Notes under the pieces: model-generated | What the model saw: only the letters and a program-made list of their open reading frames with translations | Told to the model about the DNA's origin: nothing | Database searches by the model: none | Made by a program: the position numbers and the translations under genes | Shown here: positions 10,358 to 41,190 of the stretch, one piece after another | Layout: each line of letters opens with the position of its first letter | Numbering within the stretch: the stretch's first letter is position 1 | Assembly: GCA_905182715.1 (NCBI GenBank) | Contig: CAJJCP010000025.1 | Location: forward strand, 1 to 41,190 | DNA: 41,190 nt | Reading direction: 5' to 3' | From: an uncultured Candidatus Poseidoniales archaeon | GTDB taxonomy: Archaea > Thermoplasmatota > Poseidoniia > Poseidoniales > Poseidoniaceae

Positions 10358-10366
10358 TGTGATGCC

Positions 10367-21698: not shown

Positions 21699-21781
21699 GC
21701 CGAGATCGCATAGCCTGGTATTGCGCGCGACTGGAAATCGTGTTTCCTTTGGATTCGGGAGTTCAAATCTCTCTCTCGGCG
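21699..21781 (+). tRNA. tRNA-Ser (anticodon GGA)
   Basis: Class II tRNA folded by eye. Acceptor arms are GCCGAGA (21699-21705) and TCTCGGC (21774-21780). The D stem GCA/TGC is at 708-710 and 722-724. The anticodon stem CGCGA/TCGTG encloses loop CTGGAAA, giving anticodon GGA at 21733-21735. A long variable arm, as expected for serine, precedes the T arm GGGAG-TTCAAAT-CTCTC. G21781 is the discriminator. CCA is not encoded and no intron is seen. Confidence 0.95.
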
Positions 21782-21848
21782 CTTCAGTGACTCTTTTATG
21801 ACTTTTTAGATCACGCTGTTAAGTGACTTTGACCAAGTAGAAGTGAAG

Positions 21849-21920
21849 AGCCACCGGCGAGAATTGAACTCGCGACCTCCTCATTACCAATGAGGTGCTA
21901 TACCGCTAAGCCACGGTGGC
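21849..21920 (-). tRNA. tRNA-Thr (anticodon GGT)
   Basis: On the minus strand the acceptor arm GCCACCG pairs with CGGTGGC. The D arm is GCTTAGCGGTATAGC, the anticodon arm CCTCA-TTGGTAA-TGAGG gives anticodon GGT, and the T arm is GCGAG-TTCAATT-CTCGC. The discriminator is U and CCA is not encoded. It converges on tRNA-Ser with 67 bases between the two 3' ends. Confidence 0.95.
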
Positions 21921-22045
21921 AGTAAAGACGGCCACCAACACGTGGATTATAACCGCTTCGCGTCACTCATGAATTGATTAAATGGACCTTTCAACATGAG
22001 CATCCCCTCAAAGGCTATAAGGTGATTTTTAGAAATGCGAGATTG

Positions 22046-22061
22046 GAGAAGGCAACTTCTC
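22046..22061 (+). other. Hairpin with GCAA tetraloop before the small coiled-coil gene
   Basis: GAGAAG-GCAA-CTTCTC forms a perfect six-base-pair stem closed by a GNRA-type tetraloop, ending 13 bases before the ATG at 22075. If transcribed it would be a stable leader hairpin near the ribosome-binding region. Confidence 0.45.
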
Positions 22062-22074
22062 TGGATGGGATACA

Positions 22075-22260
22075 ATGGAGCGAGAGCAAGAAAACAAAGT
22101 GGAGATGCGACAACGAGTTCGTGATCTTCAGAGCCAAGTAGATGAATTGAAAGACCTTGTGAATACGCTCTTGAGCGTAATTTGTGAGGAGCCGGATGGG
22201 GTGCACAGCGGTGCTGCTCCGACAATTCCGGGGCAACCTGCAAATAATTACTGCATGTGA
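22075..22260 (+). CDS. Small coiled-coil protein, 61 aa
   Basis: The first 40 residues form a charged heptad helix (RQRVRDLQSQVDELKDLVNTL), a likely short coiled coil. A Pro/Gly/Asn-rich tail ending NNYCM follows. No family is recognised. Support for a real gene comes from the ordered amino-acid pattern and from the stop, which abuts the rtcB stop exactly (TGA|TTA) as at three other convergent junctions in this window. No strong Shine-Dalgarno site is seen. Confidence 0.6.
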   Translation: MEREQENKVEMRQRVRDLQSQVDELKDLVNTLLSVICEEPDGVHSGAAPTIPGQPANNYCM

Positions 22261-23736
22261 TTATCCTTTGATAACAGCTAGCGGATTCAATCGGACCACG
22301 GGTCGTGCCAATCCTGCTTTTGCAGTTAAATCGATAACGTCATCAACATCTTTGTAGGCATCTGGGGCTTCTTCCGACAACACATTTGGTGTTGATGCAT
22401 GAATCCGAATACCTCGGTTTTCAAGTTCCAATTTCAATGCTTTCCCATCAATTATTTGTTTTGCCTTACTGCGCGACATGGCTCGGCCAGCACCATGGCA
22501 AGAAGAACCGAAGGCGATGTTTTGACCATTTTTTGGTCCTGCCATGACCCATGAACCTGTTCCCATGTCACCGGGGATGAGGACAGGTTGACCTGAGAGA
22601 TGGTTCGAATGTTTCATTTCCGGACTGTCACCACTGAATGCTCGCGTGGCACCCTTGCGATGGACGCAGCACGTACATCCCTTACCATCGATGCGATGAA
22701 CTTCGACTTTTGCAATGTTGTGTGCTACGTCGTAGAGAGTCTTTGCTTCTCCATCGTCACCCATCTCCAATCGGAGAACTTCACGCAAACGATGGGCGAG
22801 GGCACTTCGATTCGCAAATGCAAAGTTGGCAGCAGCGTTCATACCGTCAAAGTAAGCTTGACCTTGAGGTGAATGGAATGGAGCAGATGCTAATTGTCGG
22901 TCAGCCAGTTCATAGCCCCATTCTTCATCGACCCATATGTTGCCTTGTTGTTTGTATCTCCGTTCAAGACTTCGTACGTGGTCGCTGCATACTTGATGGC
23001 CAAGTCCCCGTGAACCTGAATGAATCATTGCGACAATTTGCCCATCATATAATCCCCACTTTTCGGCAGTTGTAGCATCGACCGTTTTCCCAACCGTTTG
23101 CAATTCCAAAAAATGATTTCCACTCCCTAATGTTCCAAGTGCACGCAATCCACGTTCTCTGGCACGTTGAGAAATCTCTGCATCAATCGTTTCCAGTTGT
23201 CCACCGGATTCGAGATGTCTCAAATCTTCATCGTAGCCATAGCCGAGTTCAATCGCAGCCGGCGCTCCGCCTTGGATGATGTTGTCGAGGTCACTCATGG
23301 TGATGTCGAGTCCACCCTTTCCTGAGGCGCCCGCAGGTATTCTTCCCGCTAAACGTCCTGCGAGTTTTTTGAGATTTGGTATGTCCTTTTCAGTAGCATC
23401 GAGCGCTAACATTCGAACGCCACAATTGATGTCAAAACCAACACCTCCAGGTGAGATCGCACCGCCAAAGTCGCCTTGTTCAGTATCGGTCGCAATGACC
23501 CCACCGATCGGAAGGCCATAACCAAAATGCCAATCCGCCATACCCCAAGCTTCACCCACTATCCCAGGAAGGCTTGCTGCATTGATGAGTTGTTCCGGAC
23601 CACGGTCATCTGCGTGTTTGAGAAGATGTGCTTCATCGGTGACCAGACGAGCATCGACTTTCATTCGGCCATGTGCTTTGATGCGCATGGTGCCGTCACC
23701 TTCAGAGGTGAGATAATCGCGCCAATCACCGGCCAT
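22261..23736 (-). CDS. rtcB: RNA-splicing ligase RtcB
   Basis: RtcB joins 2',3'-cyclic phosphate and 5'-OH RNA ends using GTP and Mn2+, mainly to seal split tRNA halves after intron removal. Metal and guanylation motifs are visible: GGVGFDINCGVR (metal Asp and Cys), LGSGNHFLEL, IHSGSRGLGHQV, and SSCHGAGRAMSR with the guanylated His, followed by DVDDVIDLTAKAGLARPVVRL. The 491-residue length is normal and the frame is intact, with no intein. I chose the ATG at 23736; a GTG two codons up is also possible. It is divergent from alaS with a 118-base gap. Confidence 0.96.
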   Translation of the reverse strand: MAGDWRDYLTSEGDGTMRIKAHGRMKVDARLVTDEAHLLKHADDRGPEQLINAASLPGIVGEAWGMADWHFGYGLPIGGVIATDTEQGDFGGAISPGGVGFDINCGVRMLALDATEKDIPNLKKLAGRLAGRIPAGASGKGGLDITMSDLDNIIQGGAPAAIELGYGYDEDLRHLESGGQLETIDAEISQRARERGLRALGTLGSGNHFLELQTVGKTVDATTAEKWGLYDGQIVAMIHSGSRGLGHQVCSDHVRSLERRYKQQGNIWVDEEWGYELADRQLASAPFHSPQGQAYFDGMNAAANFAFANRSALAHRLREVLRLEMGDDGEAKTLYDVAHNIAKVEVHRIDGKGCTCCVHRKGATRAFSGDSPEMKHSNHLSGQPVLIPGDMGTGSWVMAGPKNGQNIAFGSSCHGAGRAMSRSKAKQIIDGKALKLELENRGIRIHASTPNVLSEEAPDAYKDVDDVIDLTAKAGLARPVVRLNPLAVIKG

Positions 23737-23854
23737 GGTCACTGGTCGAGTTATTCCCCTTTGAGGATTGTTCTCCGTTTCTGCATTAAAAGACCCATAG
23801 GTTTCAAGGTGTGTCGCTTGGTCGGCGACTTGTTCCTTTGGGGAGATGAGTCAT

Positions 23855-26704
23855 ATGGGATTACCACCGATTGATTTGGCTGTGTTCAAAAACGAGGGCT
23901 TTGTTCGTAACCAATGTCGAATCACGGACCTTTGGTTTTGGACCACTGACCCTTCACGTGATACCTGTGGTGACACGACTGAGGACGAGTATACATTCAT
24001 TGGAGCACCTCTTATCGAAGGTTACCCAATGCGAGGTAAAGCATTGAAGGACGCTATGCGAGAGTCCTTCCTCACCTTTTTTGAAAACGTCGAACACACA
24101 CGCATTGAACCCTATCCAGTTTTGGCAAGATGGAGAGATGACATCCATTTGACGATCGCTTCCATTGCCGACTTCCAACCTCATGTGACTTCTGGTGAAG
24201 TTGAGCCTCCAGCAAACCCTTTGACGATTTCACAACCGTGTATTCGGTTGACTGATGTCGATGCTGTGGGCCGTTCCGGTCGTCATCTGACGACGTTTGA
24301 GATGATGGCCCATCACGTATTTAATCGGCCTCAAGAAGGAAAAACATACTATTGGATGGAAGAATGTGTTCAATATTGTCACGATTTGTTGACCAAGACG
24401 TTCAACATCTCTTCCAATGAAATCACCTACGTGGAGAATCCATGGTGTGGTGGTGGAAATGCTGGTGCGGCGGTTGAAGTCATTGTTGGTGGACTTGAAT
24501 TAGCGACATTGGTGTTCATGAATCTTGAAGAACATCCCGATGGTGATATCGAACTGAAAGGTGATTTCTACCGTGAAATGGATATGCAAATTATTGACAC
24601 TGGCTATGGCTTGGAGCGTTTTTGCTGGGCTGCAGCTGGCACACCAACCATCTATGAGGCAATTTATCCCGAGACGGTTTCTTGGCTCAAAGAGATGGCC
24701 GGTTTCTCCTCGATTACCTCTCAATGGCCCGAGCTTGACTTGGATGCATTGCTCGGTGAAATGAGCCGCCTCAATGGAATTATGAACATTGAACCAGGAG
24801 TCGATGCTGAAGAACTTCGTACCACTTTCTTACGCCGTTTGGGCGAACGCGGTATTACCGTAACCTCGGAACAATTCTCAGCGGTTACTGAGCCTCTCTC
24901 GAAAATTTATGCCATTCCCGATCACCTTCATGCTTTGAGTAACATGCTCGGAGATGGACTGGTTCCTTCGAATGCCAAAGCCGGCTACCTCGCCCGAATG
25001 CTTGCCCGCCGAACTTTACGCCTGCGAGATGATTTAGGCCTCACCATTTCACTTTCCGAACTTGCAGAACATCACATCACCATCAACCTTGGTGGACAAG
25101 CGATGAAACAAACTCATGACGGTCTTCTTGGAATTCTTCAACTTGAAGAAGAACGGTACGAAGAAATGATTCGTAAAGGTGGTAACGTCATTACAACTCA
25201 ACTCAAAGGCATCCCGATTGATTCTGAATCGATTCCTGACGAGACCCTTTTCCAACTCAATGATTCCCACGGCCTCGCACCAGACATGGTCGTCGGATTA
25301 GCAAAGAACGCCGGTTGGAAGAATGTGCGTATTCGTACAGGTTTTGCCGCTGAAATGGCGGACCGCCATGCTCGTATCGCTAAGCAAGCTGCCCAAACTG
25401 TTGAGGAGATTCCACTCGTTGAACAGATCCCACACCTCCCCGCTACCGTCGCTCTGTATTACGAGGATGTACAACAACGAGAATTCGATGCCAGTGTGCT
25501 CGCGTGTTTACCACTTATCGGAGATGACCTTCCGTCCGGTGCAACACATGGGATTCTTCTTGACAAAACGTGTTTCTATCCTGAAGGCGGCGGCCAAGAA
25601 GGTGACTACGGGCGATTAGTTACGGATTCCACTCATCATCGTGTACTTGATACACGTAAAGTTGGTTCTCATGTCCTGCATTTGGTCGATGGTCCTTTTG
25701 AAACCGGTGATTTAGTTCATGGTAGCCTCGATTGGAATCGTCGAAAGCAATTGATGGACCATCACACTGCAGTTCACATTGTCGGAGGCGCAGCCCGTCG
25801 AATACTCGGACCTCATATCTATCAGGCAGGGGCAAACAAATCAGTCGAATCCGGGCGTCTTGACATCACTCATTTCAATCGATTAAATCGTGACGACCTC
25901 GATGCCATTGAATCCTTGGCGAATGAAGTCTTGGGTCAGGTTCAACGAACCGAGAAAACCGAATTGAATCGAAAAGATGCCGACAAGAAGTTTGGTTTTG
26001 ATTTGTATCAAGGTGGAGCGCCAAAAGGTAATTCCATACGCATTCTCCGCATTGCAGACCACGACATTCAGGCTTGCGGCGGCACACATCATGATGAACC
26101 AGGCCAAATCGGTTCTATTCGAATCATTCGTTCCGCTGCCGTTCAAGATGGTGTTGAACGCCTCCACATTGTCGCAGGACATGCTGCGTTGATGTATGCT
26201 CGAAATCAAGATTCCTTGTTGAGACAAGCAAGTGAAACGTTTGGTATTCCATCGCATGAATTACCAAAAGCATCCGAGCGGTTTTACTCCGAATGGAAGG
26301 ACCAGCGAAAGATGATTGAGCAACTTGAAGCTGAAATTGTTCGTTTGCGTACTGCTGGAGGCGGTTCAGATTCGTCTGAAGTCGATGGTGTACGTATTGC
26401 CATAATGGAGGTCAGCGGTGACCTCAAGAAAATGACAAAAATGCTCAAGGAACTTACACTTGATTCTTCAAAACCAACTCTTGCAGTTCTTGGTTCTAAG
26501 GAAGGCGGTGGAAAGTTGATGATTGCCGTTACTGAAAATACAATTGCCAGTGAACGGTATGATGCAGTTGTTTTACTCCGAGAGATTTCACATCACATCA
26601 AAGGTGGTGGAGGCGGTCGTCCAACACTCGCACAGGGTGGAGGCTCCCATCCAGAAGGTCTCGAAGATGCCCTTGAAGCAGCACGCAAGAGTGTTGGTGC
26701 TTGA
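23855..26704 (+). CDS. alaS: Alanyl-tRNA synthetase, archaeal type
   Basis: AlaRS charges tRNA-Ala and clears mischarged Ser or Gly. The opening FKNEGFVRNQC with FWTTDPSRDTCGD is the archaeal zinc-bearing N-terminus. The class II core includes SQPCIRLTDVDAVGRSGRH and VENPWCGGGNAG. The editing domain has HHTAVH (about residue 634) and CGGTHHDEPGQIG (about 742), the four zinc ligands. The C-Ala domain ends GGGGGRPTLAQGGG. At about 949 residues it is full length. Two starts are possible: GGGGAG touches the ATG at 23846 but lies nine bases from the ATG at 23855, so I prefer 23855. Its stop abuts the Nudix stop. Confidence 0.96.
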   Translation: MGLPPIDLAVFKNEGFVRNQCRITDLWFWTTDPSRDTCGDTTEDEYTFIGAPLIEGYPMRGKALKDAMRESFLTFFENVEHTRIEPYPVLARWRDDIHLTIASIADFQPHVTSGEVEPPANPLTISQPCIRLTDVDAVGRSGRHLTTFEMMAHHVFNRPQEGKTYYWMEECVQYCHDLLTKTFNISSNEITYVENPWCGGGNAGAAVEVIVGGLELATLVFMNLEEHPDGDIELKGDFYREMDMQIIDTGYGLERFCWAAAGTPTIYEAIYPETVSWLKEMAGFSSITSQWPELDLDALLGEMSRLNGIMNIEPGVDAEELRTTFLRRLGERGITVTSEQFSAVTEPLSKIYAIPDHLHALSNMLGDGLVPSNAKAGYLARMLARRTLRLRDDLGLTISLSELAEHHITINLGGQAMKQTHDGLLGILQLEEERYEEMIRKGGNVITTQLKGIPIDSESIPDETLFQLNDSHGLAPDMVVGLAKNAGWKNVRIRTGFAAEMADRHARIAKQAAQTVEEIPLVEQIPHLPATVALYYEDVQQREFDASVLACLPLIGDDLPSGATHGILLDKTCFYPEGGGQEGDYGRLVTDSTHHRVLDTRKVGSHVLHLVDGPFETGDLVHGSLDWNRRKQLMDHHTAVHIVGGAARRILGPHIYQAGANKSVESGRLDITHFNRLNRDDLDAIESLANEVLGQVQRTEKTELNRKDADKKFGFDLYQGGAPKGNSIRILRIADHDIQACGGTHHDEPGQIGSIRIIRSAAVQDGVERLHIVAGHAALMYARNQDSLLRQASETFGIPSHELPKASERFYSEWKDQRKMIEQLEAEIVRLRTAGGGSDSSEVDGVRIAIMEVSGDLKKMTKMLKELTLDSSKPTLAVLGSKEGGGKLMIAVTENTIASERYDAVVLLREISHHIKGGGGGRPTLAQGGGSHPEGLEDALEAARKSVGA

Positions 26705-27421
26705 TTAAAGCGTTCGTAACGCTTCTTTATCAAAATAAGACACGGCTACATTTCGTGCGTCATCTGGCGTAAACCATTTGACTTCTGAAATCTCTTCAGT
26801 CTGCAATTCCAATGTCTCAATGCCCCCATTCCAATTTGAACGGTAGGTGAACGATACAAATGAAATTCCATCATCAGTAAATATTTTCTGCGTGATAAGT
26901 GGTTCATTCTGTTCTAATACGATGCTCAAACCAATCTCCTCAAGCGTTTCTCGCACACACCCAATACTTGGATGTTCATCGTGGTCCATATAGCCGCCAG
27001 GGAGTGTCCAGAATCCTCTAAAGTGCCCACGTTCAACCTTTCCAAGTAAGACCTGTCCAGCATCATTACAGATCATGACTTTCGATACAAGGCGGTGAAT
27101 CGAACGGTAAATTGCTTCTCGTGCCACAGGGTGAACCGAGTCATCTGCAATCATTTCATCTTTCCATGCCCAGTGCTTTGGCCATTCAATGTCTGGATAT
27201 CCTTTGAGAACACGGTACACAAGTGTACCAAATACGATACGAGTTTCCCGTATGACCTTCCATTCAATACCCATACGTTCGATTTCGGCACGTGTTGGAA
27301 GTCGTAGTGCCGTCGCCTCGTTCTGGCGACCTTGAATTGGGAGTTGTGGACCATTCCCTTCTTGGTCAACCAGTAACACCTTCCCGTCGTGTTCAAGATG
27401 AACAACTTCCTCGGGATGCAT
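26705..27421 (-). CDS. Nudix hydrolase with N-terminal extension
   Basis: The Nudix box is complete: GGYMDHDEHPSIGCVRETLE followed by EIG (about residues 140-163), matching GX5EX7REXXEEXG. It cleaves nucleoside diphosphate derivatives; the substrate is not predictable. The 110 residues before it include VVHLEHDGKVLLVDQEG and a Trp-rich stretch (DIEWPKHWAWKD). This could be a second small domain or a degenerate Nudix half, as in NADH pyrophosphatase-like proteins, but no zinc Cys set is present. Divergent from the metallo-hydrolase gene by about 95 bases. Confidence 0.88.
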   Translation of the reverse strand: MHPEEVVHLEHDGKVLLVDQEGNGPQLPIQGRQNEATALRLPTRAEIERMGIEWKVIRETRIVFGTLVYRVLKGYPDIEWPKHWAWKDEMIADDSVHPVAREAIYRSIHRLVSKVMICNDAGQVLLGKVERGHFRGFWTLPGGYMDHDEHPSIGCVRETLEEIGLSIVLEQNEPLITQKIFTDDGISFVSFTYRSNWNGGIETLELQTEEISEVKWFTPDDARNVAVSYFDKEALRTL

Positions 27422-27514
27422 GTTCTTCGGTCCACCTCATGTTTCATCAATGCTCGTATGATTGTAATTTTTGAAGATGGTATTCTTCAAGTACATGTGC
27501 TCAATCGCTCACTC

Positions 27515-28225
27515 ATGAACTTCGAACAACTCAATCTTTCCGGCTGGGCAAAGACCTATCTGCTGGTAGACCCCGAAACTCGAATGGCTGCACTCGTCGA
27601 TCCTGTTTACGATTTCATGAATAAATATCTCGCAATCCTCGAGGCTCGTAACCTTGTTCTCTACTGCACCATTGCAACGCATACCCATGCCGACCATATC
27701 TCTGCATGCTCATCTCTTCGAGAGCGAACAGGTTGCGAATATGTGATGTGGAAAGATACACCATGTTTGAATGTCTCCAAATACCTCGAAGAAGGAGAAA
27801 TACTGATGCTTGGTTCAACTCCTCTCAAAATCCATCATGTGCCTGGACATACTAACGACCATGTTCTCATTGAAACTCCAACGCATTTGTTGACGGGTGA
27901 TTTCCTCTTTACTGGCCAAGGTGGTGTCGGTCGGGATGATTTGCCGAGTGGTCGCTTGCTCTCTCATTGGGAGTCTCTGAAAAAACTCGAATTGCTTGAT
28001 GGTGAACTTCTCGTCTGTACGGGACATGACCCGCCAGAGACCGTCATGCAAACACTTGATTGGAACCGTGCCAACAATCCAGTTCTTACGATGACATCCT
28101 TCGAACAATTTGAAGCATGGCAAAACAAAGTAACTGCAGGTTTGGGTGCGGTGTCGAAAATTAAAACAGCGCTTCCCGCCAATCTTTTCGCAGAGATACC
28201 TGATGTGATTCCTTGGATGGAATGA
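27515..28225 (+). CDS. Metallo-beta-lactamase-fold hydrolase, persulfide dioxygenase-like
   Basis: Metal ligands are visible: THTHADH, GHTNDH, TGDFLFTGQGGVGRDD and the final His in CTGHD. The single-metal persulfide dioxygenase (ETHE1) and glyoxalase II groups share these; DFLFTGQGGVGRDD resembles the ETHE1 form (GDxLxxxxxGRxD). An iron enzyme oxidising glutathione or CoA persulfide would fit sulfur metabolism, but glyoxalase II is the alternative. I chose the ATG at 27515 (MNFEQLNLSGW), which matches the usual family start; the ATG at 27458 is also in frame and would add 19 residues. Confidence 0.85.
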   Translation: MNFEQLNLSGWAKTYLLVDPETRMAALVDPVYDFMNKYLAILEARNLVLYCTIATHTHADHISACSSLRERTGCEYVMWKDTPCLNVSKYLEEGEILMLGSTPLKIHHVPGHTNDHVLIETPTHLLTGDFLFTGQGGVGRDDLPSGRLLSHWESLKKLELLDGELLVCTGHDPPETVMQTLDWNRANNPVLTMTSFEQFEAWQNKVTAGLGAVSKIKTALPANLFAEIPDVIPWME

Positions 28226-28263
28226 AACTCGCAACGTTGTGCATGGCCATTTGTATTCAAAGA

Positions 28264-31226: not shown

Positions 31227-31323
31227 AGGCTGTGTACTGAGGAACTGAACACCCATTGTACTCTTCCATAATGTCTTGAGGGGTTTGAGAGAACCCTTGC
31301 GACTTCACGGAAATGATATGTCG
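31227..31323 (-). repeat. 97-nt island-end repeat, left copy (inverted relative to 40122-40219)
   Basis: The reverse complement of these bases matches 40122-40219 at nearly every position: CGACATATCATTTCC, AAGGGTTCTCTCAAACCCCT, CAAGACATTATGGA, GTACAATGGGTGTTCAG and CAGTACAC are shared. It contains a small hairpin GGGTT-CTCTCA-AACCC whose stem is kept in both copies while the loop varies. Its inner edge touches the stop codon of the SGNH lipoprotein gene. The outer side (31157-31226) holds nothing I recognise. Confidence 0.85.
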
Positions 31324-32190
31324 CTACTGTTGATTTTGTTCATTGAGAACAGAGTCTGCAATGACTCGAATGTCTGTGTCCCACTGAGTAAATTCCGGCA
31401 TATCCAAAGGTTCGAAACCATGGACTGCATGAAGCCAAATGAGGGTTCCTGTGTCGATTGTCAATTGCCCTGCATGACCTTTAGCGTCTGTGAAAATTGA
31501 AGTTGGCTTAGGTCCGCTTAATTTCTCAATGTCACCTTCCAATTCACCTGCTTCAAACATCTCGCGTAATTCATAGGCAATTGCTCCATGATGGAAAGTG
31601 AAGATATCAGCATCAGGATAGTCGGAACTCAAGTTTGTTCCAAGGCTAGCCCATGATCTATATGCTTCATCTGAGCCATCTCTAAATTCGCTTGCGTTAT
31701 CATAATCTTCTGGATAATCTTTCCAGGGCAGGGCTAAACCGATTCTAGTATTCGCATTCCGGTCGAGTGCATATTCAGTGAAATTCCAAATTGCTTCATC
31801 CGACTGAGCGCCTGATTCAATAAATTCGATACTACAACAAATCATGATTAGAACATCAATTTCTCCTGTATCAAGGAACTCTTTGATACGCTCGCTGTCC
31901 GCTTCATCAGCCCACAGAGCATCTGGAGCCCCGTTCGGCCCTCCACTAAATTGAGCGTAAGCGGCGTGGTTAGAAATTCCGGATGTATGTGCATAATCTT
32001 CAAGCAATTTTGCAAATTGTCTACCGAAACTATGGCCAATATAGAGAACATTGTAATCTTCCGAGTCTACATCCTCTGGTGGACGATCAATCATGTCAAG
32101 TTCTCCATCACCTTTCCCATTACGCAAACAACCCGATAAAGAGACTGTAAACATCAAAACAACAAGAAAAAGTGCAACCTTTTTGTTCAT
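31324..32190 (-). CDS. SGNH-hydrolase-like lipoprotein
   Basis: The product starts with a lipoprotein signal peptide (MNKKVALFLVVLMFTVSLSGC, lipid Cys21). After an acidic linker comes YNVLYIGHSFGRQF, matching block I of SGNH/GDSL-like hydrolases with Ser54 as nucleophile. A C-terminal Asp-His pair in FTDAKGHAGQL is a candidate for the rest of the triad. The substrate could be a glycan or ester; this is inference. I start at the ATG at 32190; the open frame further up is repeat sequence. The first 29 codons lie inside the 180-bp duplicated segment, so a second copy of this signal peptide exists at 36136-36223. It is divergent from TSP3 giant 1. Confidence 0.72.
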   Translation of the reverse strand: MNKKVALFLVVLMFTVSLSGCLRNGKGDGELDMIDRPPEDVDSEDYNVLYIGHSFGRQFAKLLEDYAHTSGISNHAAYAQFSGGPNGAPDALWADEADSERIKEFLDTGEIDVLIMICCSIEFIESGAQSDEAIWNFTEYALDRNANTRIGLALPWKDYPEDYDNASEFRDGSDEAYRSWASLGTNLSSDYPDADIFTFHHGAIAYELREMFEAGELEGDIEKLSGPKPTSIFTDAKGHAGQLTIDTGTLIWLHAVHGFEPLDMPEFTQWDTDIRVIADSVLNEQNQQ

Positions 32191-32282
32191 GATTCTTCTA
32201 AGTAATCGTTCGTATATGTAACTTCTGTGACAGTGGTGTAACCCTTCCGACACCCTCTGTACAGACAGTCCACGCGTCGGTA
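32103..32282. repeat. 180-bp direct repeat, copy A
   Basis: Identical to 36136-36315 except at one base (T at 32219, G at 36252). It spans the first 29 codons of the lipoprotein gene, its upstream region and a terminal motif ending CACGCGTCGGTA. Sequence diverges exactly after GGTA, followed here by the leader of TSP3 giant 1 and in copy B by the leader of giant 2. Promoters for both divergent genes probably lie inside or just beside it. Confidence 0.95.
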
Positions 32283-32330
32283 GCCACTGATCCAAAGGGT
32301 TCGACTTACAAGACTCCAGCCAAACTACAA

Positions 32331-35300
32331 ATGCTCAACACAAGTCGACAAGCCATGCGCAACATCACTCCTATGTTCCTTGCCTTCTTGATGATAATCG
32401 CCAGCATTTCTACCTTTGGTGAAATCACCGTTCAGGACCACGAACAAACGTCTTTGGAACTGACCGAAACCGAATCGATGCACACTGGCAACACAGATAC
32501 AGATATGGACGGTGTTTTGGATACAAACGATGCTTGTCCAAACACTTATGGAACCAGCACTGAAGACCGAATAGGTTGTATCGACACAGACGGTGACGGA
32601 TGGTCAGACTTAGGTGATGATTTCCACAACAAAGTCACACAATGGAAAGACACTGATGGTGATGGGCTTGGTGATAATTGGGGAGATGAATCATTTTGTA
32701 AACCATCTCACTGGCCAGGAGAATTCGTTGAAAATGCAATATTAACAGATGATTCTCCACTTGATTTTGATAACGATGGTTTTGAAGATGAAGGATTAGC
32801 GACTTTCCCCCAGTATATCATAGAGCCGTCTGTGCCTTTATCACTGTTGGATATAGCAGTAAATTCCTCAGCAGCAATATGTTCTTCAACACAGACGAAT
32901 GGAATCAATAGTGACAGATATTTCCTAGACCAAGTATGGTATGATGATTCAGGCTCTTTACATATTATTTCTACAAACTCTATCAATATAGGTCCCATGC
33001 ATTGGGAATTACAAACCAATCATAGTATTTGGGATGGGGTTTCTTGGACTGTGAATACACTTCAAGATGAAAATGGTTCATACTCTTTGGGATTTACCGA
33101 TTTGGCATATGTCAATAACACAATTCACGCGATTGTGGATGTATACCTAAATTCTTCAATTTTGACTGGAACTGCTAAGTATGGCATATATACAGAGTCT
33201 GGAAATTGGCATTTTCAAAACATATCAAGCAGCTTTGGTCCTTTAGATCTTGGAGATTATGAATTGGTCGCTTCTGAAGTCGGTTTTTCGGATGATGTAT
33301 ATTTAGTGACGGGTAATGCAGGCGATCCAGTGTACTACCAAGTTTACTCGAATGTGACATATGCAAATAATGGAATCTCAGAATCTATTGAATTAAACGC
33401 CCACTGGATGGCTTCAGTCGACAGTATCAATGGGTGGCAAGGTCAGCTACATTCGACTATAAAGTCAATGGATGGCTGGCCCGGTATACTTTTCAGTGAG
33501 CAGACACTTAATTATATGGACTTCTATATCGATTCTTTTGGTGACTTAACCGTTGTTCAAGACCTGAGTTTACTTATTGAGTATAATCATAGAATTGGGA
33601 TTGTTCTTGACTGGAATTGTGGATATTATTCTGGCGCGGGCATGGAGGCAGAATCTGTTGAACCAATAGCCCATTTGGATCCTTTTGATAAGATGCATTT
33701 ATTCTCCATCGATATAGTACAAAGAGGCCAGTTGTTTTTTGGTGTAAGTAATTCAAGTTATTCTAGCCTTAGTGGTGATGCCCGATGTATTGACATGGAA
33801 CCTTTTGATTCTCCTGATGAATTTGGTTTTACTTCTGGACAGAATCTCAAAGATTATTACCTCGGTGGCGATGAAGACCTCGAAGGGGTCAATCTCAGAA
33901 TGGAAGTCGATTCCAATGGGTTTACCCATGTTGTGTATACCAACTGTTTTTATGATGAATGGGCACCTATGAAACATCGAATAAAATATGCGATTTATGA
34001 CGGAGTCGAATGGGATATTTCTATAATTGTACCTTTTGATGTAGATTGCGCAGAGAACTTAGACTTCGTATTATCAAATGACGATCAAGCCTACATTGGC
34101 TATACAAATCTGAATGGTGAACGGATGAGTATATTGAAAGAAAGTGATGAATCTATATCAAATGATGTGGTTTTCGATTCCTGTCCAATCTTTTATGGCA
34201 CCAGTACTGAAGATGTTGCAGGCTGTATCGATAATGATAATGATGGCTGGAGTAATGCTGAAGATTTATTCCCTGGAGACTCAAATGAATGGGAAGATTC
34301 TGATGGTGACGGAGTTGGGGATAATTCGGATGAATTCCCGGACGATTCCACTGAATCAGAAGATTCTGATGGTGACGGAGTCGGTGATAATTCAGACCAA
34401 TTCCCATATGACTCAAATGAAAGTATAGATTCTGATGGAGATGGGTTTGGAGATAATTCTGATGCTTTCCCGGATGATTCTGACGAATCAGAAGACTCAG
34501 ATGACGATGGAGTTGGCGATAACTCTGATGAATTCCCATATGACCCAACACAATTTGAAGATAATGATGAAGATGGATATGGTGATAATATAAATGGAAA
34601 TAATCCGGATTTATTCCCTAATAATTCCTCTGAATGGGCTGATACGGATGGTGACGGTCATGGAGATGAAGAACATGATGAATTCCCACTCGATTCAACA
34701 GAATCCGTCGATACAGATAATGACGGAACTGGCGATAATGCAGATATCGACGATGATGGTGATGGCGTTTCCGATACCAACGATACTTTCCCACTTGATT
34801 CAACAGAATCCGTTGATACGGATAATGATGGTTTTGGTGATAACTCTGATACCGATGATGATAACGATTTAATTCTCGATATTGATGATTTGTTCCCACT
34901 CGATTCAACAGAATCAATCGATACAGATAATGACGGAACTGGCAATAATGCAGATATTGATGATGACGGTGATGGCGTTTCTGATACCAACGATGCTTTC
35001 CCACTTGATTCAACAGAATCCGTCGATACAGATAATGACGGAACTGGCGATAATGCAGATATCGACGATGATGGTGATGATGTTTTTGATACCAACGATA
35101 CTTTCCCACTTGATTCAACAGAATCAGTCGATACAGATAATGACGGAACTGGCGATAATGCAGATGTCGACGATGATGGTGACGGTGTTTTTGATACCAA
35201 CGATACTTTCCCACTTGATTCAACAGAATCCGTTGATACCGATCACGATGGTATTGGTAATAATGCAGATACTGATGATGATGGTGATGGAGTTTCAGAT

Positions 35301-35528
35301 TCAAGCGACGATTTCCCTGAAGATCCAACAGAATGGGCTGATGTGAATGGAGATGGTCTTGGAGATAACAAGGATCCTCTAAGTTCCTTCGAAAGTGCAC
35401 AACAAGCACCAGCCCTCTCACTGCTTGGAATTGCTGTAGTTCTTGGAATCATGTTTATGCTCTATCGTGCTCAACCACCTCTAAGGAATGAAGATAAATC
35501 TCTTGCTGAAATTGCTGAGGAAGAGTGA
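32331..35528 (+). CDS. TSP3-repeat surface protein 1, 1065 aa
   Basis: Exported: a signal segment (ITPMFLAFLMIIASISTFG, about residues 12-30) opens the protein. One TSP3-like unit (DTDMDGVLDTNDACPNTYGT) is followed by a roughly 480-residue beta-rich domain with no recognised family, then a second Cys-type unit (FDSCPIFYGTSTEDVAGC). A long Asp-rich array follows, then a membrane helix (SLLGIAVVLGIMFMLY, about 1030-1045) and an acidic tail. The Asp repeats should bind many calcium ions and stiffen the stalk (TSP3 knowledge). There is no PGF motif before the helix, unlike giant 2. The frame is unbroken. ATG 32331 or 32355 could be the start. The beta-rich part looks more A/T-rich than neighbouring genes. 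Confidence 0.88.
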   Translation: MLNTSRQAMRNITPMFLAFLMIIASISTFGEITVQDHEQTSLELTETESMHTGNTDTDMDGVLDTNDACPNTYGTSTEDRIGCIDTDGDGWSDLGDDFHNKVTQWKDTDGDGLGDNWGDESFCKPSHWPGEFVENAILTDDSPLDFDNDGFEDEGLATFPQYIIEPSVPLSLLDIAVNSSAAICSSTQTNGINSDRYFLDQVWYDDSGSLHIISTNSINIGPMHWELQTNHSIWDGVSWTVNTLQDENGSYSLGFTDLAYVNNTIHAIVDVYLNSSILTGTAKYGIYTESGNWHFQNISSSFGPLDLGDYELVASEVGFSDDVYLVTGNAGDPVYYQVYSNVTYANNGISESIELNAHWMASVDSINGWQGQLHSTIKSMDGWPGILFSEQTLNYMDFYIDSFGDLTVVQDLSLLIEYNHRIGIVLDWNCGYYSGAGMEAESVEPIAHLDPFDKMHLFSIDIVQRGQLFFGVSNSSYSSLSGDARCIDMEPFDSPDEFGFTSGQNLKDYYLGGDEDLEGVNLRMEVDSNGFTHVVYTNCFYDEWAPMKHRIKYAIYDGVEWDISIIVPFDVDCAENLDFVLSNDDQAYIGYTNLNGERMSILKESDESISNDVVFDSCPIFYGTSTEDVAGCIDNDNDGWSNAEDLFPGDSNEWEDSDGDGVGDNSDEFPDDSTESEDSDGDGVGDNSDQFPYDSNESIDSDGDGFGDNSDAFPDDSDESEDSDDDGVGDNSDEFPYDPTQFEDNDEDGYGDNINGNNPDLFPNNSSEWADTDGDGHGDEEHDEFPLDSTESVDTDNDGTGDNADIDDDGDGVSDTNDTFPLDSTESVDTDNDGFGDNSDTDDDNDLILDIDDLFPLDSTESIDTDNDGTGNNADIDDDGDGVSDTNDAFPLDSTESVDTDNDGTGDNADIDDDGDDVFDTNDTFPLDSTESVDTDNDGTGDNADVDDDGDGVFDTNDTFPLDSTESVDTDHDGIGNNADTDDDGDGVSDSSDDFPEDPTEWADVNGDGLGDNKDPLSSFESAQQAPALSLLGIAVVLGIMFMLYRAQPPLRNEDKSLAEIAEEE
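34296..35300 (+). repeat. Asp-rich TSP3-like repeat array in giant 1 (66-nt then 105-nt units)
   Basis: The array starts with 22-residue units of the form DSDGDGVGDNSDEFPDDSTE. After 34690 it switches to 35-residue units that insert an ADIDDDGDGVSDTND segment before FPLDSTESV. The 105-nt units are close copies of one another at the DNA level, which points to recent expansion. Confidence 0.9.
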
Positions 35529-35530
35529 TT

Positions 35531-35568
35531 CCTCGTTAGAGATAAACTTCTACTTGTTGTTAACGAGG
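35531..35568 (+). terminator. Hairpin directly after giant 1
   Basis: CCTCGTTA (35531-35538) pairs perfectly with TAACGAGG (35561-35568) across a 22-base loop, two bases after the stop at 35528. A transcript-end hairpin is the simplest reading. No long T run follows. Confidence 0.45.
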
Positions 35569-35604
35569 GTGATTTCATAACACCTTTGTAAACAATTCAG
35601 TAGA

Positions 35605-35955
35605 TTGAAGCGTTCGCTATGGAACATATACGTTCCTACCCACTGGTTGGATGGCGAGGCGAACATTGCCACTTCGGGGTACTACGCATCTCACTATGCC
35701 TGTTTTGTCATCAAGGGCCGATTTATCAGGGTGAACAAGCAATTTCAAGATCCACGTGCCAGTTTGCTCTATGCACAGAAAGTGATTGGTGGACACTTCG
35801 TTCTTGGTGAAGCTGCTATTCTGCGAACAGAGCTGGACGCTGATGCACCAGCAACGATCGCAAACCTAGCTTCGGACTATCGAAAATGGTGTATCAAGAT
35901 TGGTGCTCCTCTTGAGAACAGTTCAAATACTGTTAAATTCGGTGTATTGTCATGA
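35605..35955 (+). CDS. Hypothetical protein, possibly 5'-truncated
   Basis: The frame opens at a weak TTG start and runs 116 residues. The core (SHYACFVIKGRFIRVNKQF, then QKVIGGHFVLGEAAILRTEL) looks like a normal folded protein, but I do not recognise it. Its stop overlaps the next start by four bases (ATGA), so the pair was once an operon. The lack of a good start and its place just after giant 1 suggest that the 5' end may be missing. Confidence in coding is moderate. Confidence 0.5.
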   Translation: MKRSLWNIYVPTHWLDGEANIATSGYYASHYACFVIKGRFIRVNKQFQDPRASLLYAQKVIGGHFVLGEAAILRTELDADAPATIANLASDYRKWCIKIGAPLENSSNTVKFGVLS

Positions 35956-36263
35956 AGGAAGTCAAGTGCCCTAAATGTGATTCAAAGTTTGAAATGGATG
36001 CCACCGGCTACGCGGATATTGTAAACCAAGTCCGAGGAGATGAATTTGAAAGCGAACTGAACAGCCGACTCAAGGATTTGGAAGCAAATCACAACATGAA
36101 ACTTGAACTTGCTGAACAAAGCATTGCATCTGAAACTCCATCACCTTTCCCATTACGCAAACAACCCGATAAAGAGACTGTAAACATCAAAACAACAAGA
36201 AAAAGTGCAACCTTTTTGTTCATGATTCTTCTAAGTAATCGTTCGTATATGGAACTTCTGTGA
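35952..36263 (+). pseudogene. Truncated DUF2130-type protein fused to repeat copy B
   Basis: The first residues, MKEVKCPKCDSKFEMDATGY followed by ADIVNQVRGDEFESEL, match the typical N-terminus of DUF2130 proteins: a zinc-like CPxC pair, then the start of a long coiled coil. After about 60 codons (position 36135) the sequence becomes the 180-bp repeat, and the remaining residues to 36263 are repeat read in an unrelated frame. The rest of the usual 400-plus-residue protein is absent. The gene was cut by whatever event placed repeat copy B here. Confidence 0.7.
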
Positions 36264-36315
36264 CAGTGGTGTAACCCTTCCGACACCCTCTGTACAGACA
36301 GTCCACGCGTCGGTA
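36136..36315. repeat. 180-bp direct repeat, copy B
   Basis: Second copy of 32103-32282 with one mismatch. On the minus strand it still encodes the lipoprotein start MNKKVALFLVVLMFTVSLSG and a few codons after, but then runs into the truncated DUF2130 fragment, so it gives only an orphan signal peptide. Its right end (CACGCGTCGGTA) is the left arm of a long hairpin. Confidence 0.95.
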
Positions 36316-36354
36316 CGGACGCGTGAGATGCCTGTCGCAAGGGTATACAGAGGG
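36286..36354. repeat. Long imperfect hairpin at the joint before giant 2
   Basis: CCCTCTGTA (36286-36294) pairs with TACAGAGGG (36346-36354), and CACGCGTC (36304-36311) pairs with GACGCGTG (36318-36325) around the six-base loop GGTACG. The left arm is the end of repeat B. The right arm (36314-36354) is a copy of the 42-nt motif at 40219-40260. Copies at 32282 and 40219 have only one half each, so the hairpin exists only where the two half-motifs meet. Confidence 0.8.
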
Positions 36355-36432
36355 TAATTTCAAAAAATATGGCTTTTTTAAGGGTTCAATTTCATCCATT
36401 CAAGTCTTAAGCGTCACCAGATTGGAAACTTC

Positions 36433-39400
36433 ATGCGCCTAAAGCCAACAACCTCGGTTGCCTTATTTTTGATGTTCCTTTTGGTGGCTCAAACTACCTT
36501 ATTGGCTGTGACAAATGATGTGAATACAACGATGTTAACATCGGAGACGAACGATGAAGATTCTTTTTCTGTTTCCGCTCGGAATGCCCCTTCATGGAGC
36601 ACACCGGTCTCGCTCGACAGCACAGATGACATCGGCTATCAATCCTCATTAGCAATTGATTCCAATAATAACCTGCATGTAACTTATTTGGACTGGACCA
36701 ATCAAAATCTTGAGTACACGACCTATGATGGCTCTTCTTGGAGCACACCGATCTCACTCGACAGCACAGATAGACGTCGGCAGAGATTCCTCATTAGCGA
36801 TTGATTCCAGTGATAACCTGCACGTGACCTATCTTGACACTACCAATGAGCAATCTTGAGTACATGACCTATGATGGCTCTTCTTGGAGCACACCGATCA
36901 CACTCGACAGCACAGATAACGTCGGCAGGCAATCTTCATTAGCGATTGATTCCAATGATAACCTGCATGTAACTTATCTTGACTGGACCAATCAAAATCT
37001 TGAGTACATGACCTATGATGGCTCTTCTTGGAGCACACCGGTCTCACTCGACAGCACAGATGACGTCGGCTGGCAATCCTCATTAGCGATTGATTCCAAT
37101 GATAACCTGCACGTGACCTATTATGACTACACCAATGGCAATCTTGAGTACATGACCTATGATGGCTCGTCTTGGACCACACCGGTCTCGCTCGACAGCA
37201 CAGATGACATCGGCTATCAATCCTCATTAGCGATTGATTCCAATGATAACCTGCATGTAACTTATCTTGACTGGACCAATCAAAATCTTGAGTACATGAC
37301 CTATGATGGCTCTTCTTGGAGCACACCGGTCTCACTCGACAGCACAGATGACGTCGGCTGGCAATCCTCATTAGCGATTGATTCCAATGATAATCTGCAC
37401 GTGACCTATCTTGATTCATACCCCTATTACAATCTTGAGTACATGACCAATGACGGCTCCTCATGGAGCACACCGGTCTCTCTCGACAGCAGAGGTGACG
37501 TCGGCTATCGATCCTCATTAGCGATAGATTTCAATGATGGCTTGCACGTGACCTATTATGACGACACCAATGGCAATCTTGAGTACATGATCTCCAGCAA
37601 TAACACAGGTGGCAACAACAGTGGTGGGAATACCTCTCAAGTATGGAGCACACCTGCAACACTCGACAGCACAGGTAGCGTCGGCTATCAATCCTCATTA
37701 GCGATTGATTCCAATGATAACCTGCATGTAACCTATCTTGACGACACCAATGTCAATCTTGAGTACATGACCTATGATGGCTCTTCTTGGAGCACACCGG
37801 TCTCACTCGACAGCACAGATAACGTCGGCAGTGAATCCTCATTAGCGATTGACTCCAATGATAACCTGCACGTGACCTATGTTGACAACACCAATGAAAA
37901 TCTTGAGTACATGACCTATGATGGCTCTTCATGGAGCACACCTGTCTCACTCGACAGCACAGGTAGCGTCGGCTGGGAATCCTCATTAGCGATTGATTCC
38001 AATGATAACCTGCATGTGACCTATCTTGACTACACCAATGACAATCTTGAGTACATGACCCATGATGGCTCTTCTTGGAGCACACCGGTCACACTCGACA
38101 GTACAGATGAGGTCGGCATACAGTCCTCACTAGCGATTGATTCGAATGATAACCTGCACGTAACCTACCTTGACGCCACCAATGGCAATCTTGAGTACAT
38201 GACCTATGATGGCTCTTCATGGAGCACACCGATCTCACTCGACAGCACAGATTTAGTCGGCTTTTATTCCTCATTAGCGATTGATTCCAATGATAACCTG
38301 CACGTGACCTATTATGACTACACCAATGGCAATCTTGAGTACATGACCTATGATGGCTCGTCTTGGAGCACACCGGTCTCGCTCGACAGCACAGATAACG
38401 TCGGCTGGCAATCCTCATTAGCGATTGATTCCAATGATAACCTGCACGTGACCTATCTTGACTACACCAATGGCAATCTTGAGTACATGACCTATGATGG
38501 CTCTTCTTGGAGCACACCGGTCTCACTCGACAGCACAGATGACGTCGGCTGGCAATCCTCATTAGCGATTGATTCCAATGATAATCTGCACGTGACCTAT
38601 CTTGATGATTACCCCAATTACAATCTTGAGTACATGACCTTCAGCAATAGCGCAGGTGGAAATAATTCCGGCAACAACTCAGGAAACAACTCAAATCTCG
38701 ATACAGACGGTGACGGATTGAACAATACGATCGACGATTGCCCAAACGGCAATACAAATTGGACATCCACGGCTACAACCGATTATGACGGCGATGGATG
38801 TCAAGATTCTAACGAAGACTCAGATGACGATAACGATGGAATACTCGATGTCAGCGATGCATTCCCACTTGACTCCTCGGAATCCGTAGATACAGACAAC
38901 GATGGAACTGGCGACAATGCCGACACCGATGATGACGGAGATAACGTTCTAGATGCAGACGACACCTTCCCACTCGACTCTTCTGAATCCGTGGATACAG
39001 ACAACGACGGAACTGGCGACAATGCCGACACGGACGATGATGGAGATAGCGTTCTAGATGCGGACGACGCCTTCCCACTCGACCCAACCGAATCTGAGGA
39101 TACGGATAATGACGGAACTGGCGACAATGCCGATACCGACGATGATGGAGATAACGTTCTAGATGCGGACGACGCCTTCCCACTCGACCCAACCGAATCT
39201 GAGGATACGGATAATGACGGAACTGGCGACAATGCCGATACCGATGATGATGGAGATAACGTTCGGATGCAGACGACGCCTTCCCACTCGACCCAACCGA
39301 ATCTGAGGATACGGATAATGACGGAACTGGCGACAATGCCGATACCGATGATGATGGAGATAACGTGACGGATGCGGACGACGCATTCCCACTTGATCCA

Positions 39401-40036
39401 ACCGAATCTGAAGATACGGATAATGACGGAACTGGCGACAATGCCGATACCGACGATGATGGAGATAACGTGACGGATGCAGACGACGCCTTCCCACTTG
39501 ACCCAACCGAATCTGAGGATACGGATAATGACGGAACTGGCGACAATGCCGATACCGACGATGATGGAGATAACGTAACGGATGCAGACGATGCTTTCCC
39601 ACTCGACTCCTCGGAATCCGTGGATACAGACAATGACGGAACTGGCGACAATGCCGATACGGACGATGATGGAGATAATGTGACGGATGCAGACGACGCC
39701 TTCCCACTTGACTCCTCGGAATCCGAGGATACAGACAATGACGGAACTGGCGACAATGCCGACACCGACGATGATGGAGATAACGTCCTAGATGTAGACG
39801 ACGCCTTCCCACTCGACTCCTCGGAATCCGCGGATACAGACAATGACGGAACTGGCGACAATGCCGACACCGACGATGACGGAGATAACGTCCTAGATGC
39901 AGACGACGCCTTCCCACTTGATTCAACTAAATCTAAAGATACTGTTTCCGACGAGGATTCATCGATTCCAGGCTTTACAGGAATACTGGCAACACTTAGC
40001 TTGCTTGGTGCAGCATTTATTCGTCGTAATGAGTGA
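36433..40036 (+). CDS. TSP3-repeat surface protein 2 with PGF-CTERM tail (three frame breaks)
   Basis: Reading through three breaks gives one protein of about 1200 residues. A signal peptide (TTSVALFLMFLLVAQTTLLA) is followed by about fourteen 48-residue repeats (SSLAIDSNDNLHVTYLD, then NLEYMTYDGSSWSTPVSLDS), likely a BNR-like or other propeller array. An Asn/Gly-Ser linker and about ten 35-residue Asp-rich TSP3-like units come next, then a tail PGFTGILATLSLLGAAFIRR plus NE. That tail fits the PGF-CTERM signal processed by archaeosortase A. Breaks are an extra base near 36772, an extra base near 36849 and a missing base near 39262; the longest open piece is 36834-39368. Start is the ATG at 36433. 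Confidence 0.85.
36590..38645 (+). repeat. 144-nt tandem repeat array (48-residue propeller-like units)
   Basis: About fourteen units spaced 144 bases apart, for example AATCCTCATTAGCG recurring at 37075 and 37219. Many units are nearly identical in DNA sequence, with changes concentrated at the VGxQ and LDxTN positions. One unit (about 37590-37650) carries an Asn/Gly-rich insert that resembles the linker at the end of the array, suggesting duplication of a whole block. Confidence 0.93.
38880..39935 (+). repeat. 105-nt tandem repeat array (35-residue TSP3-like units)
   Basis: About ten units spaced exactly 105 bases apart, reading DTDNDGTGDNADTDDDGD then a variable VLDADDAFPLD or VTDADDAFPLD. 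Units differ by a few silent changes. One unit near 39262 lacks a base. The unit design is the same as in giant 1. Confidence 0.93.
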
Positions 40037-40121
40037 ACGTGATCGTCGATAAGCAGGTTCTGATGTAGAGACCTCTGTAATCGAAAGTTCACACGGTATC
40101 TCATGGGTTGATACAGATAAC

Positions 40122-40219
40122 CGACATATCATTTCCACGAAATCGCAAGGGTTCTTTCAAACCCCTCAAGACATTATGGAGAGAGTACAATGGGTGTTCA
40201 GTCCCCCAGTACACTGCCT
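40122..40219 (+). repeat. 97-nt island-end repeat, right copy
   Basis: Inverted partner of 31227-31323, with a handful of substitutions and one inserted G. It keeps the GGGTT/AACCC hairpin (40149-40153 with 40160-40164). It is followed directly by the 42-nt motif at 40219, which the left copy lacks. The 85 bases between giant 2 and this repeat contain nothing recognised. Confidence 0.85.
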
Positions 40220-40260
40220 ACCGACGCGTGAAACGCTTGTCGCAAGGGTAATACAGAGGG
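40219..40260 (+). repeat. 42-nt GACGCGTG...TACAGAGGG motif, right copy
   Basis: TACCGACGCGTG, then TGTCGCAAGGGTAA, then TACAGAGGG. It matches 36314-36354 with a few changes in the first spacer and one extra base. Its beginning is the reverse complement of the ends of repeats A and B (CACGCGTCGGTA). Confidence 0.8.
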
Positions 40261-40285
40261 GTATCACAATTCGTTCAGACCATGC

Positions 40286-41190
40286 TTAGGATGAAATTTG
40301 CACAACGCATTTCCCTTTTGCTCGACCCGAAAAAGAGCGATTGAACGCCCCCTGCCAGCCATCTTCGGAATCTTCTGAATGGAAGTCCCAAACACCGTCG
40401 AGCACAGGCTTAATCACACCGCTTTCGAGATGATTTGCAAGCGTTGAGAGATCCTCATGACTTGGTGAAAGGAAGAGGTAGGTCCAGTTAGCGTTCATAG
40501 ATTGAGCAGCTTTGTACTCCTTGCGCTTCTCTCTCCTCTTCAAAAACAACTTGAGAATCCAAGCAGTTCCTCCGATTCTCCTAATTTCATCTAAAGTAGG
40601 CGTTCCTGCAATAGATACAATTCGTCCCCCTTCTTTGATGACTTTGACCATCTCAAGACCTTCTGCAGTTGTATCAAAACAAACATCGAATTTCGTACTG
40701 TCATCGTTTCCATATACTGTGACAAAGCTTCTCTGATTTGTAATCGAGGACTTCATCTGCACCAAGGCTCTTACACAAATCCATCTTTTCGCCTTTTGAT
40801 GCTGTAGTAACTACAAGTCCTGCTTTGAATACATGCTTTGCCAATTGAATGGCCATTGTGCCAACTCCACCAGCCCCTCCGGAGATGAAGACAGAGTCTC
40901 CTTCTTTCAGCCCAGATTCTTTCAGTACCTGGAATGCAGTCATTCCAGCGAGTGGAATAGATGCGGCTTCCTCGAAACTGATATTGTCTGGCTTAGTGAC
41001 AACATCAGATGTACGTGCAACACAAAATTCGGCCATCGCACCTCTGAACCACGGTGTCTTCTTGTCATCATCTACATCTCCCCATATGCGAGCAAACACA
41101 GGCTGTCCTACCGAAAATACTCCTTTGCTATCGGCTTTTTCCACAACTCCTGCAACATCATAAGAGATGACATGAGGGAATTCAGCAACA
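40286..41190 (-). CDS. MDR-family NAD(P)-dependent oxidoreductase (partial, one frame break)
   Basis: Medium-chain dehydrogenase/reductase of the quinone-reductase/zinc-alcohol dehydrogenase group. Visible are FPHVISYDVAGVVEKA at the window edge, EEAASIPLAGMTAFQVL, the nucleotide-binding SGGAGGVGTMAIQLAKH, SLGADEVLDYK and the late core DVCFDTTAEG. The classic catalytic zinc Cys/His set is not seen in the part present, so a zinc-free quinone reductase-like enzyme is more likely. The 5' end lies beyond 41190. The frame breaks at about 40727, where one extra base separates DYKSEK from FVTVYGNDDSTKFD; removing it gives a continuous protein to the stop at 40286. It lies outside the right island repeat. 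Confidence 0.85.

Follow-up and report, generated by a model that had tools for sequence, protein, structure and literature searches.

Why does one archaeal contig carry two almost identical 180-nt sequences 3,853 bp apart, each directly ahead of a giant gene? The question is raised by the right-hand end of a 41,190-nt stretch of DNA from an uncultured Candidatus Poseidoniales archaeon (bases 1-41190 of contig CAJJCP010000025.1, assembly GCA_905182715.1), hereafter called the window. The direct repeat (32103-32282 and 36136-36315; 99% identity, with a single mismatch) far exceeds what chance would produce. A sequence-only reading had taken it for the trace of an inserted surface-gene cassette that duplicated its launch site and gave two giant genes the same upstream region. 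The two direct copies, their single mismatch and the 3.85-kb segment with giant 1 between them were confirmed, as was the divergence of the copies on the right directly after GGTA (32283 and 36316), which we read as a recombination edge; one mismatch in 180 bp also fits the recent event that had been proposed. To our knowledge, how Marine Group II archaea gain and vary their surface and accessory genes is an open question.

The repeat is interpreted here, with a probability of roughly two in three, as a by-product of gene-cassette shuffling in Poseidoniales, probably in Ca. Poseidoniaceae. A cassette would consist of one or a few genes between a short head and, frequently, a tail of about 112 bp, E1, which ends in ...CAGTACACTGCC-TA. 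A putative site-specific recombinase would join cassettes at a quasi-palindromic site with the shared core TA; because TA is symmetric, head-to-head, tail-to-tail and head-to-tail joins would all be possible, and cassettes could be inverted, lost, duplicated and passed between species. The window (contig C25) belongs to the genome G000 (36 contigs, 73% complete, 4.6% contamination), probably a metagenome bin, and the compared genomes are assemblies, most or all of them probably bins. Comparisons covered 59 or 62 genomes of the genus and 170 genomes of the family in 11 genera, and 10 genomes were used for the recombinase and transposase searches.

The nature of the repeat is evident from its minus strand, which holds the first codons of a 288-aa lipoprotein, its leader and the head motif TACCGACGCGTGGACTGTCTGTACAGAGGG. 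Each copy is therefore the 5' end, or head, of a minus-strand lipoprotein gene, and its GGTA end is a cassette junction. In G000 the 180-bp query matches only these two places, in an assembly that is 73% complete. Ten of the 59 genus genomes match it, G000 included; among the nine others, eight match over no more than 29-38 bases, all ending precisely on the last base of GGTA, and the match in G020 is longer. At the mismatch base, copy 2 agrees with three relatives (G020:C11, which is L013, and L016 and L017; GTTCC on the lipoprotein strand) and copy 1 is the changed one, so a fresh duplication of copy 1 does not by itself account for copy 2. A paralogue in G020:C5 shows a third form at this base. 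On the left, the copies diverge at 36135/36136. The gene fragment before copy 2 has 95.6% DNA identity to an intact gene of G028 over 389 bp (35747-36135), and past 36135 the intact gene continues with other sequence; copy 2 therefore begins at a truncation. A second lipoprotein cassette, cut short by truncation, is thus a better reading of copy 2 than a target duplication.

The features of the region are as follows.

31227-31323, minus strand: E1 tail of the lipoprotein cassette, a 92% match to the E1 query directly behind the gene; the terminal TA reads TG here
31324-32190, minus strand: lipoprotein gene, intact, 288 aa; the block 31232-32264 is 98.7% identical to G020:C11
32103-32282, minus strand: copy 1 of the repeat, with the lipoprotein gene 5' end, leader and cassette head in the N form, TACCGACGCGTGGACTGTCTGTACAGAGGG
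32281-32282, no strand: TA junction between lipoprotein head and giant 1 head, CACGCGTCGG-TA-GCCACTG
32281-35638, plus strand: giant 1 cassette (gene 32331-35528, 1065 aa, TSP3-like repeats), without an E1 tail
35637-35638, no strand: TA junction at the giant 1 tail; G000:C9 has another follower at this exact point after 388 identical bases
35637-36135, plus strand: cassette remnant with a small open reading frame (ORF) and the 5' 61 codons of a gene labelled DUF2130, 95.6% identical to G028
36136-36315, minus strand: copy 2 of the repeat, best read as the remaining head of another lipoprotein cassette, cut off on its left side
36314-36315, no strand: TA junction between lipoprotein head and giant 2 head, CACGCGTCGG-TA-CGGACGCGTG
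36314-36356, plus strand: M-form head of the giant 2 cassette; three G003 relatives have matches starting at this TA
36314-40220, plus strand: giant 2 cassette with a frameshifted gene (ORFs 36433-36804, 36834-39368 and 39365-40036)
40110-40222, plus strand: E1 tail of giant 2, ending CAGTACACTGCC-TA-CC, with the TA at 40219-40220
40219-41190, minus strand: start of the alcohol dehydrogenase (ADH) cassette, with an M head (40219-40260) and then an alcohol dehydrogenase-like gene in two ORFs

The right end of the window is thus an array of lipoprotein, giant 1, DUF2130 remnant, second lipoprotein remnant (copy 2), giant 2 and ADH, meeting at TA. A TA with degenerate inverted half-sites may be the core that the junctions share. 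The junction of copy 2 with giant 2 folds as a hairpin (z -3.2), and that of copy 1 is without such a fold (z -0.8).

Evidence for exchange at TA comes from the tail of giant 1, which has two followers within one assembly: CGTTCC-TA-CCCACTG in the window and CGTTCC-TA-GCGTCGG in G000:C9. The two sequences agree over 388 bp at 100% identity and then split exactly at TA. Near-identical cassettes with different neighbours were also found between genomes. The ADH cassette of G000:C9 (5431-7183) is 99.2% identical to that of G016:C45 but has other neighbours; one end of the shared block falls at TA, and the opposite end a single base beyond TA. A lipoprotein cassette shared by DAVD01000035 and CALSZZ010000004 (98.2%) has different neighbours on both sides, with its left end at TA and its right match running a few bases past TA. 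The lipoprotein cassettes of G000 and G020 are 98.7% identical, as compared to only 87% for one nearby block (20002-28226), which points to a recent transfer of the cassette; in G020 a giant-like gene, ADH and lipoprotein occur in another order and orientation than in the window. In a strict test on 24 shared blocks (at least 350 bp, at least 95% identity) with 34 distinct boundaries, 14 boundaries lay 0-2 nt after TA against 4.5 expected (P about 5e-5).

The second line of evidence is the tail. An inverted pair of about 100 bp (I1 and I2, 31227-31323 and 40122-40219) encloses the whole region and consists of E1, the conserved tail of about 112 bp that ends many cassettes in ...CAGTACACTGCC-TACC. 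The E1 query alone matches in 80 of the 170 family genomes and in 7 of the 11 genera, some matches being partial, and the E1-plus-head query matches, in some cases partly, in 35 of the 62 genus genomes; some genomes hold several at 1-4 kb spacing. Identity is mostly 80-98% among the matches listed. In 54 of 78 distinct copies the dominant ORF is on the strand of E1 and stops close to it, and in 23 it is antisense. Conservation ends sharply at TACC, by reading. At the discovery loci a script placed TA at 60 of 63 distinct E1 ends, or 57 of 63 after reading, three picks (L086, L001 and L013:17483) having been discounted since TA was taken at another place. Without these misplaced rows, the 53 distinct 12-nt E1 followers give the consensus CC[CG][TA][CT][TG][GC]. 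In other genera (40 loci), TA stands at the same place in 45 of 46 copies and varied sequence follows; two copies sit in L174, the same record as L016, so that the new ones number 43 of 44. Among the followers are heads, E-type tails in reverse and starts of unrelated sequence, hence several kinds of join occur. The head itself reads TA-CCSWYTG..., in many cases with ACAGAGGG inside it. Of the 40 E1 regions from other genera, at least 10 are 125 nt or less away from a contig end, as would be predicted for a repeat whose neighbours vary.

A second tail type, E2, has an E1-like start in some copies and a different 3' half. In L049, inverted E2 elements (388-484 and 1845-1941) flank a 1.4-kb segment of two genes, with outer TA ends on both. 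Neither E1 nor the heads matched Rfam, and in five sources the gathering score was reached by tRNAs only; E1 was accordingly rejected as a known RNA. Folding of two E1 copies gave z values of -0.47 and -1.43, and the consensus fold of 53 sequences lacks clear covariation, so that a covarying structure was given a lower rank.

Several observations weigh against cassette shuffling at TA. Twenty of the 34 block boundaries lie away from TA, some of them within E1 or at a GTACA that precedes TA by a few bases; this applies to both ends of the lipoprotein block shared by G000 and G020. Of the 14 TA boundaries, at least three seem to be coincidences, and the window itself takes part in two. When alignment ends were tested without a filter, no clear excess of TA appeared, and in a set of 1,152 sharp breakpoints called automatically TA came 13th among the 16 last dinucleotides, with 53 cases, close to the background rate; in both cases protein-repeat matches dominate the set. 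The excess of palindromic cores in the islands is modest and the counts are mixed: AGGGTACC occurs 23 times against 9.5 expected, with one occurrence in 201 kb of control, and GGGTACC 43 times against 38.8; GCCTACC occurs 39 times against 25.1, though its density is not above the control, and the CGGTACCG-type core 9 times against 11.7. The constancy of TA in E1 is by itself no proof of exchange, because TA may belong to the conserved element. E1 also lacks clear covariation. Single joins may also be errors, because every sequence comes from assemblies.

A further point against is that no recombinase accompanies E1 in all its carriers. Serine recombinases occur in 5 of the 10 genomes. One, at 12910-13680 of G016:C45, lies inside an E1 cluster; its relatives were found in 10 of the 62 genus genomes, several as fragments, and G003 holds ten E1-plus-head matches without a relative of it. 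No E1, E2 or head match was found at the serine recombinase loci of G000, G021, G036 and G044; a serine recombinase of G000 lies at 9749-10420 of its contig C6.

In G016:C10, one of two serine recombinase genes lies beside E2. The two serine recombinases that were scored match CcrB and XisF best in NCBIfam, at 70 and 79 bits against a CcrB cut-off of 900. Two serine recombinase genes stand about 2 kb apart in the same orientation in L141 (7628-10472), one of them beside E2, and both are 58% identical to that of G016:C45. A tyrosine recombinase gives one strong match in all 10 genomes, with a weaker extra hit in two; that of G000, on contig C14 and the only one scored, reaches 185 bits against a cut-off of 220 for XerA_Arch and 101 against 265 for integrase_gron. 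DDE_3 (IS630/Tc1-mariner) and Transposase_20 (IS110), the transposase families searched genome-wide, were found in none of the 10 genomes. Our best guess for the acting enzyme is a serine-type recombinase, in view of the symmetric TA core and the free orientation of the joins. A search for carriage by phages or viruses gave no sign of it: no phage record matched, and three exact E1 patterns, which would miss diverged copies, had no occurrence in IMG/VR, where no relative of the G016 serine recombinase was found either.

The history of the window may be reconstructed along these lines. It would once have held two lipoprotein cassettes, one of which stays intact and head-to-head with giant 1. 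The second, head-to-head with giant 2, would have been truncated together with the DUF2130 cassette by a deletion that left the 180-bp head and created a fusion of the DUF2130 and second lipoprotein genes, as if templated by a stretch of giant 1. At the join (36124-36145), 22 nt match the TSP3 stretch of giant 1 at 35283-35304 in inverted orientation with 95% identity, which suggests a template switch as the origin of the left join of copy 2. Recombination between the two copies could still delete giant 1. The predicted form with lipoprotein, one copy and giant 2 was not seen in 12 lipoprotein loci inspected over at most about 230-300 bp upstream; their upstream neighbours vary, several are without a recognisable head, and none joins a lipoprotein head to giant 2.

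The view of the repeat as the promoter of the giants found no support. Since each copy contains the beginning of a gene on the minus strand, any promoter within it would point away from the giants. Each giant also has its own leader after TA (GCCACTG... for giant 1, CGGACGCGTG... for giant 2), and the shared 180 bp is therefore not shown to be their promoter. Giant 1 is a single open frame (32331-35528), although Pfam TSP_3 scores 17.5 bits, below its curated cut-off of 25, and giant 2 is split into ORFs. The truncation of the DUF2130 gene holds by the comparison with G028; its name is a label from that reading, with no Pfam match at E 0.01. The lipoprotein has a signal-peptide-like start, as read by eye, and no Pfam family.

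Giant 2 (36433-40036) lies in three ORFs and ADH (40286-41189) in two, as pseudogenes or through sequence errors near the contig end. The ADH copy at the window end has one indel relative to G000:C9, which holds the whole cassette at about 5432-7188 with a 367-aa ADH ORF. With giant 2 frameshifted and ADH carrying an indel, the contig may be less reliable at this end, or may derive there from a minor strain. Three relatives of the giant 2 head and N-terminal region occur in G003:C7 and G003:C6 (L088 and L089), with matches that start at TA, one of them at a contig start; they may represent a multi-copy family of giant surface cassettes. G020:C5 (L032 and L012) holds a second lipoprotein cassette, about 72% identical, with its own head and E1. 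The lipoprotein query found 16 loci in named genomes, all titled metagenome-assembled genomes: 14 labelled as archaea (seven Poseidoniales, Poseidoniaceae or Poseidonia, two Thalassarchaeaceae and five Euryarchaeota) and two Acidimicrobiaceae.

For the contents of cassettes, 109 of 170 ORFs were scanned in sets of 38, 36 and 35, and the best 25 of 41, 38 and 48 families were considered. Among the families listed are aldo-keto reductases, short-chain and zinc dehydrogenases, HxlR and MarR regulators, transporters, a desaturase and one serine resolvase, and no transposase is among those listed for the 109 ORFs. Some scanned ORFs are flanking genes (GMP synthase, NAD kinase), because the regions reach 3.5 kb beyond the outermost E1. 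Elsewhere in the window, two tRNA genes lie on opposite strands about 70 bp apart (21699-21920).

Four other explanations were weighed. Copy 2 and its left junction could be chimeric, through assembly or amplification, or could combine two strains. The contamination listed for G000 agrees with this, as do contig C9, which starts inside giant 1 and holds an alternative continuation, the 96.6% identity of the ADH copies, the frameshifts in giant 2 and ADH at the contig end and the 22-nt inverted match, of a kind seen in template switching. Copy 2, however, differs from copy 1 and carries the base of the relatives, and so did not arise as an artefactual duplicate of copy 1; its right junction obeys the TA rule seen in the cassettes of other genomes. 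We consider such an artefact unlikely.

Ordinary homologous recombination between dispersed copies of E1, acting as a conserved terminator or 3' untranslated region and needing no dedicated recombinase, would account for the identity among E1 copies, their frequent position behind genes and the shared blocks that end inside E1. Heads and the giant 1 tail, which are without E1, nonetheless break at TA; the E1 followers have a 7-nt motif in common, and the conservation of E1 stops sharply at TACC. This explanation is accordingly held to be improbable.

An integron or another known mobile element (an IS630/Tc1-like element at TA, IS110 with its bridge RNA, or Xer/pdif modules) is quite doubtful. 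A cassette with a 3' site of about 110 bp is laid out much like those of integrons, the TA at either end is reminiscent of TA-targeting transposons, and a tyrosine recombinase gene is present in every one of the 10 genomes. The attC core consensus is GTTRRRY / RYYYAAC. E1, which ends CAGTACACTGCC-TACC, does not read as this core, by inspection against the consensus and not by an attC finder; on this ground and that of the integrase score of the single G000 enzyme the integron was rejected or given a lower rank, as were IS630 and IS110 on the absence of DDE_3 and Transposase_20 from the 10 genomes.

Least probable is that insertion of a surface-gene cassette made a 180-bp target duplication: direct repeats do flank the segment with giant 1, and the giants do behave like cassettes, but the pattern is not that of a target-site duplication. 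The right edge obeys the TA rule seen in other cassettes, whereas on its left copy 2 is simply truncated, within both the DUF2130 and the lipoprotein gene. Between the copies lie two cassettes split at the TA of 35637-35638, and it is copy 1, not copy 2, that departs from the base of the relatives.

Cassette shuffling at TA therefore stays the preferred explanation for the repeat. The wider proposition is that planktonic archaea of this family possess an integron-independent mobile cassette system with a palindromic TA-core site and a conserved tail of about 112 bp, which moves between species and genera and shuffles giant surface proteins, lipoproteins and metabolic genes in any orientation, possibly with a role in surface variation; we rate its chances as even. 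If it is true, the recognisable tail and junction would serve as a search tool for mobile genes of Marine Group II. The system would help to explain assembly breaks there, and laboratory assays for the enzyme would have a defined DNA site to start from. According to PMC6461757, surface seawater is rich in Marine Group II archaea, which are uncultured; the main text of that paper has no hit for integrase, recombinase, cassette, mobile or repeat. The titles and opening lines of abstracts within the literature coverage, which takes in few subscription papers and preprints, mention neither cassettes nor such repeats in these archaea.

Comparison with known systems suggests a shuffling system unmatched to a known one. 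Integron cassettes and clusters of attC sites lacking integrases (CALINs), archaeal integrons included (PMC9668308, main text), are alike in their shared arrays of accessory genes and in a site of about 110 bp behind many genes; a word search of that main text gave no hits for Poseidoni-, Thermoplasmat- or Marine Group. They are also alike in that neighbours vary and the exchange point lies at the outer end of the site behind the gene. The present system is unlike them in that inspection reveals no GTTRRRY core, no structure is supported by covariation, both orientations occur, and the one enzyme scored lies below the curated integrase cut-off.

Serine recombinases employ a two-base core chemistry. 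Serine inversion systems and cassette chromosome recombinases (of the Ccr and Mpi/Hin type) would share with the system described here a two-base core and joins in both orientations, and serine recombinases matching CcrB and XisF are present in some genomes, one inside an E1 cluster. They differ in that the two enzymes scored lie far below the family cut-offs, and many E1 carriers are without a detectable serine recombinase. The pdif (Xer) modules of Acinetobacter plasmids are gene modules of alternating orientation between short sites, each a conserved 28-bp sequence. The arrangement of modules between short sites in alternating orientation is common to both systems, whereas in the Poseidoniales cassettes only TA and a degenerate 7-nt half-site are held in common, accompanied by a long, one-sided E1.

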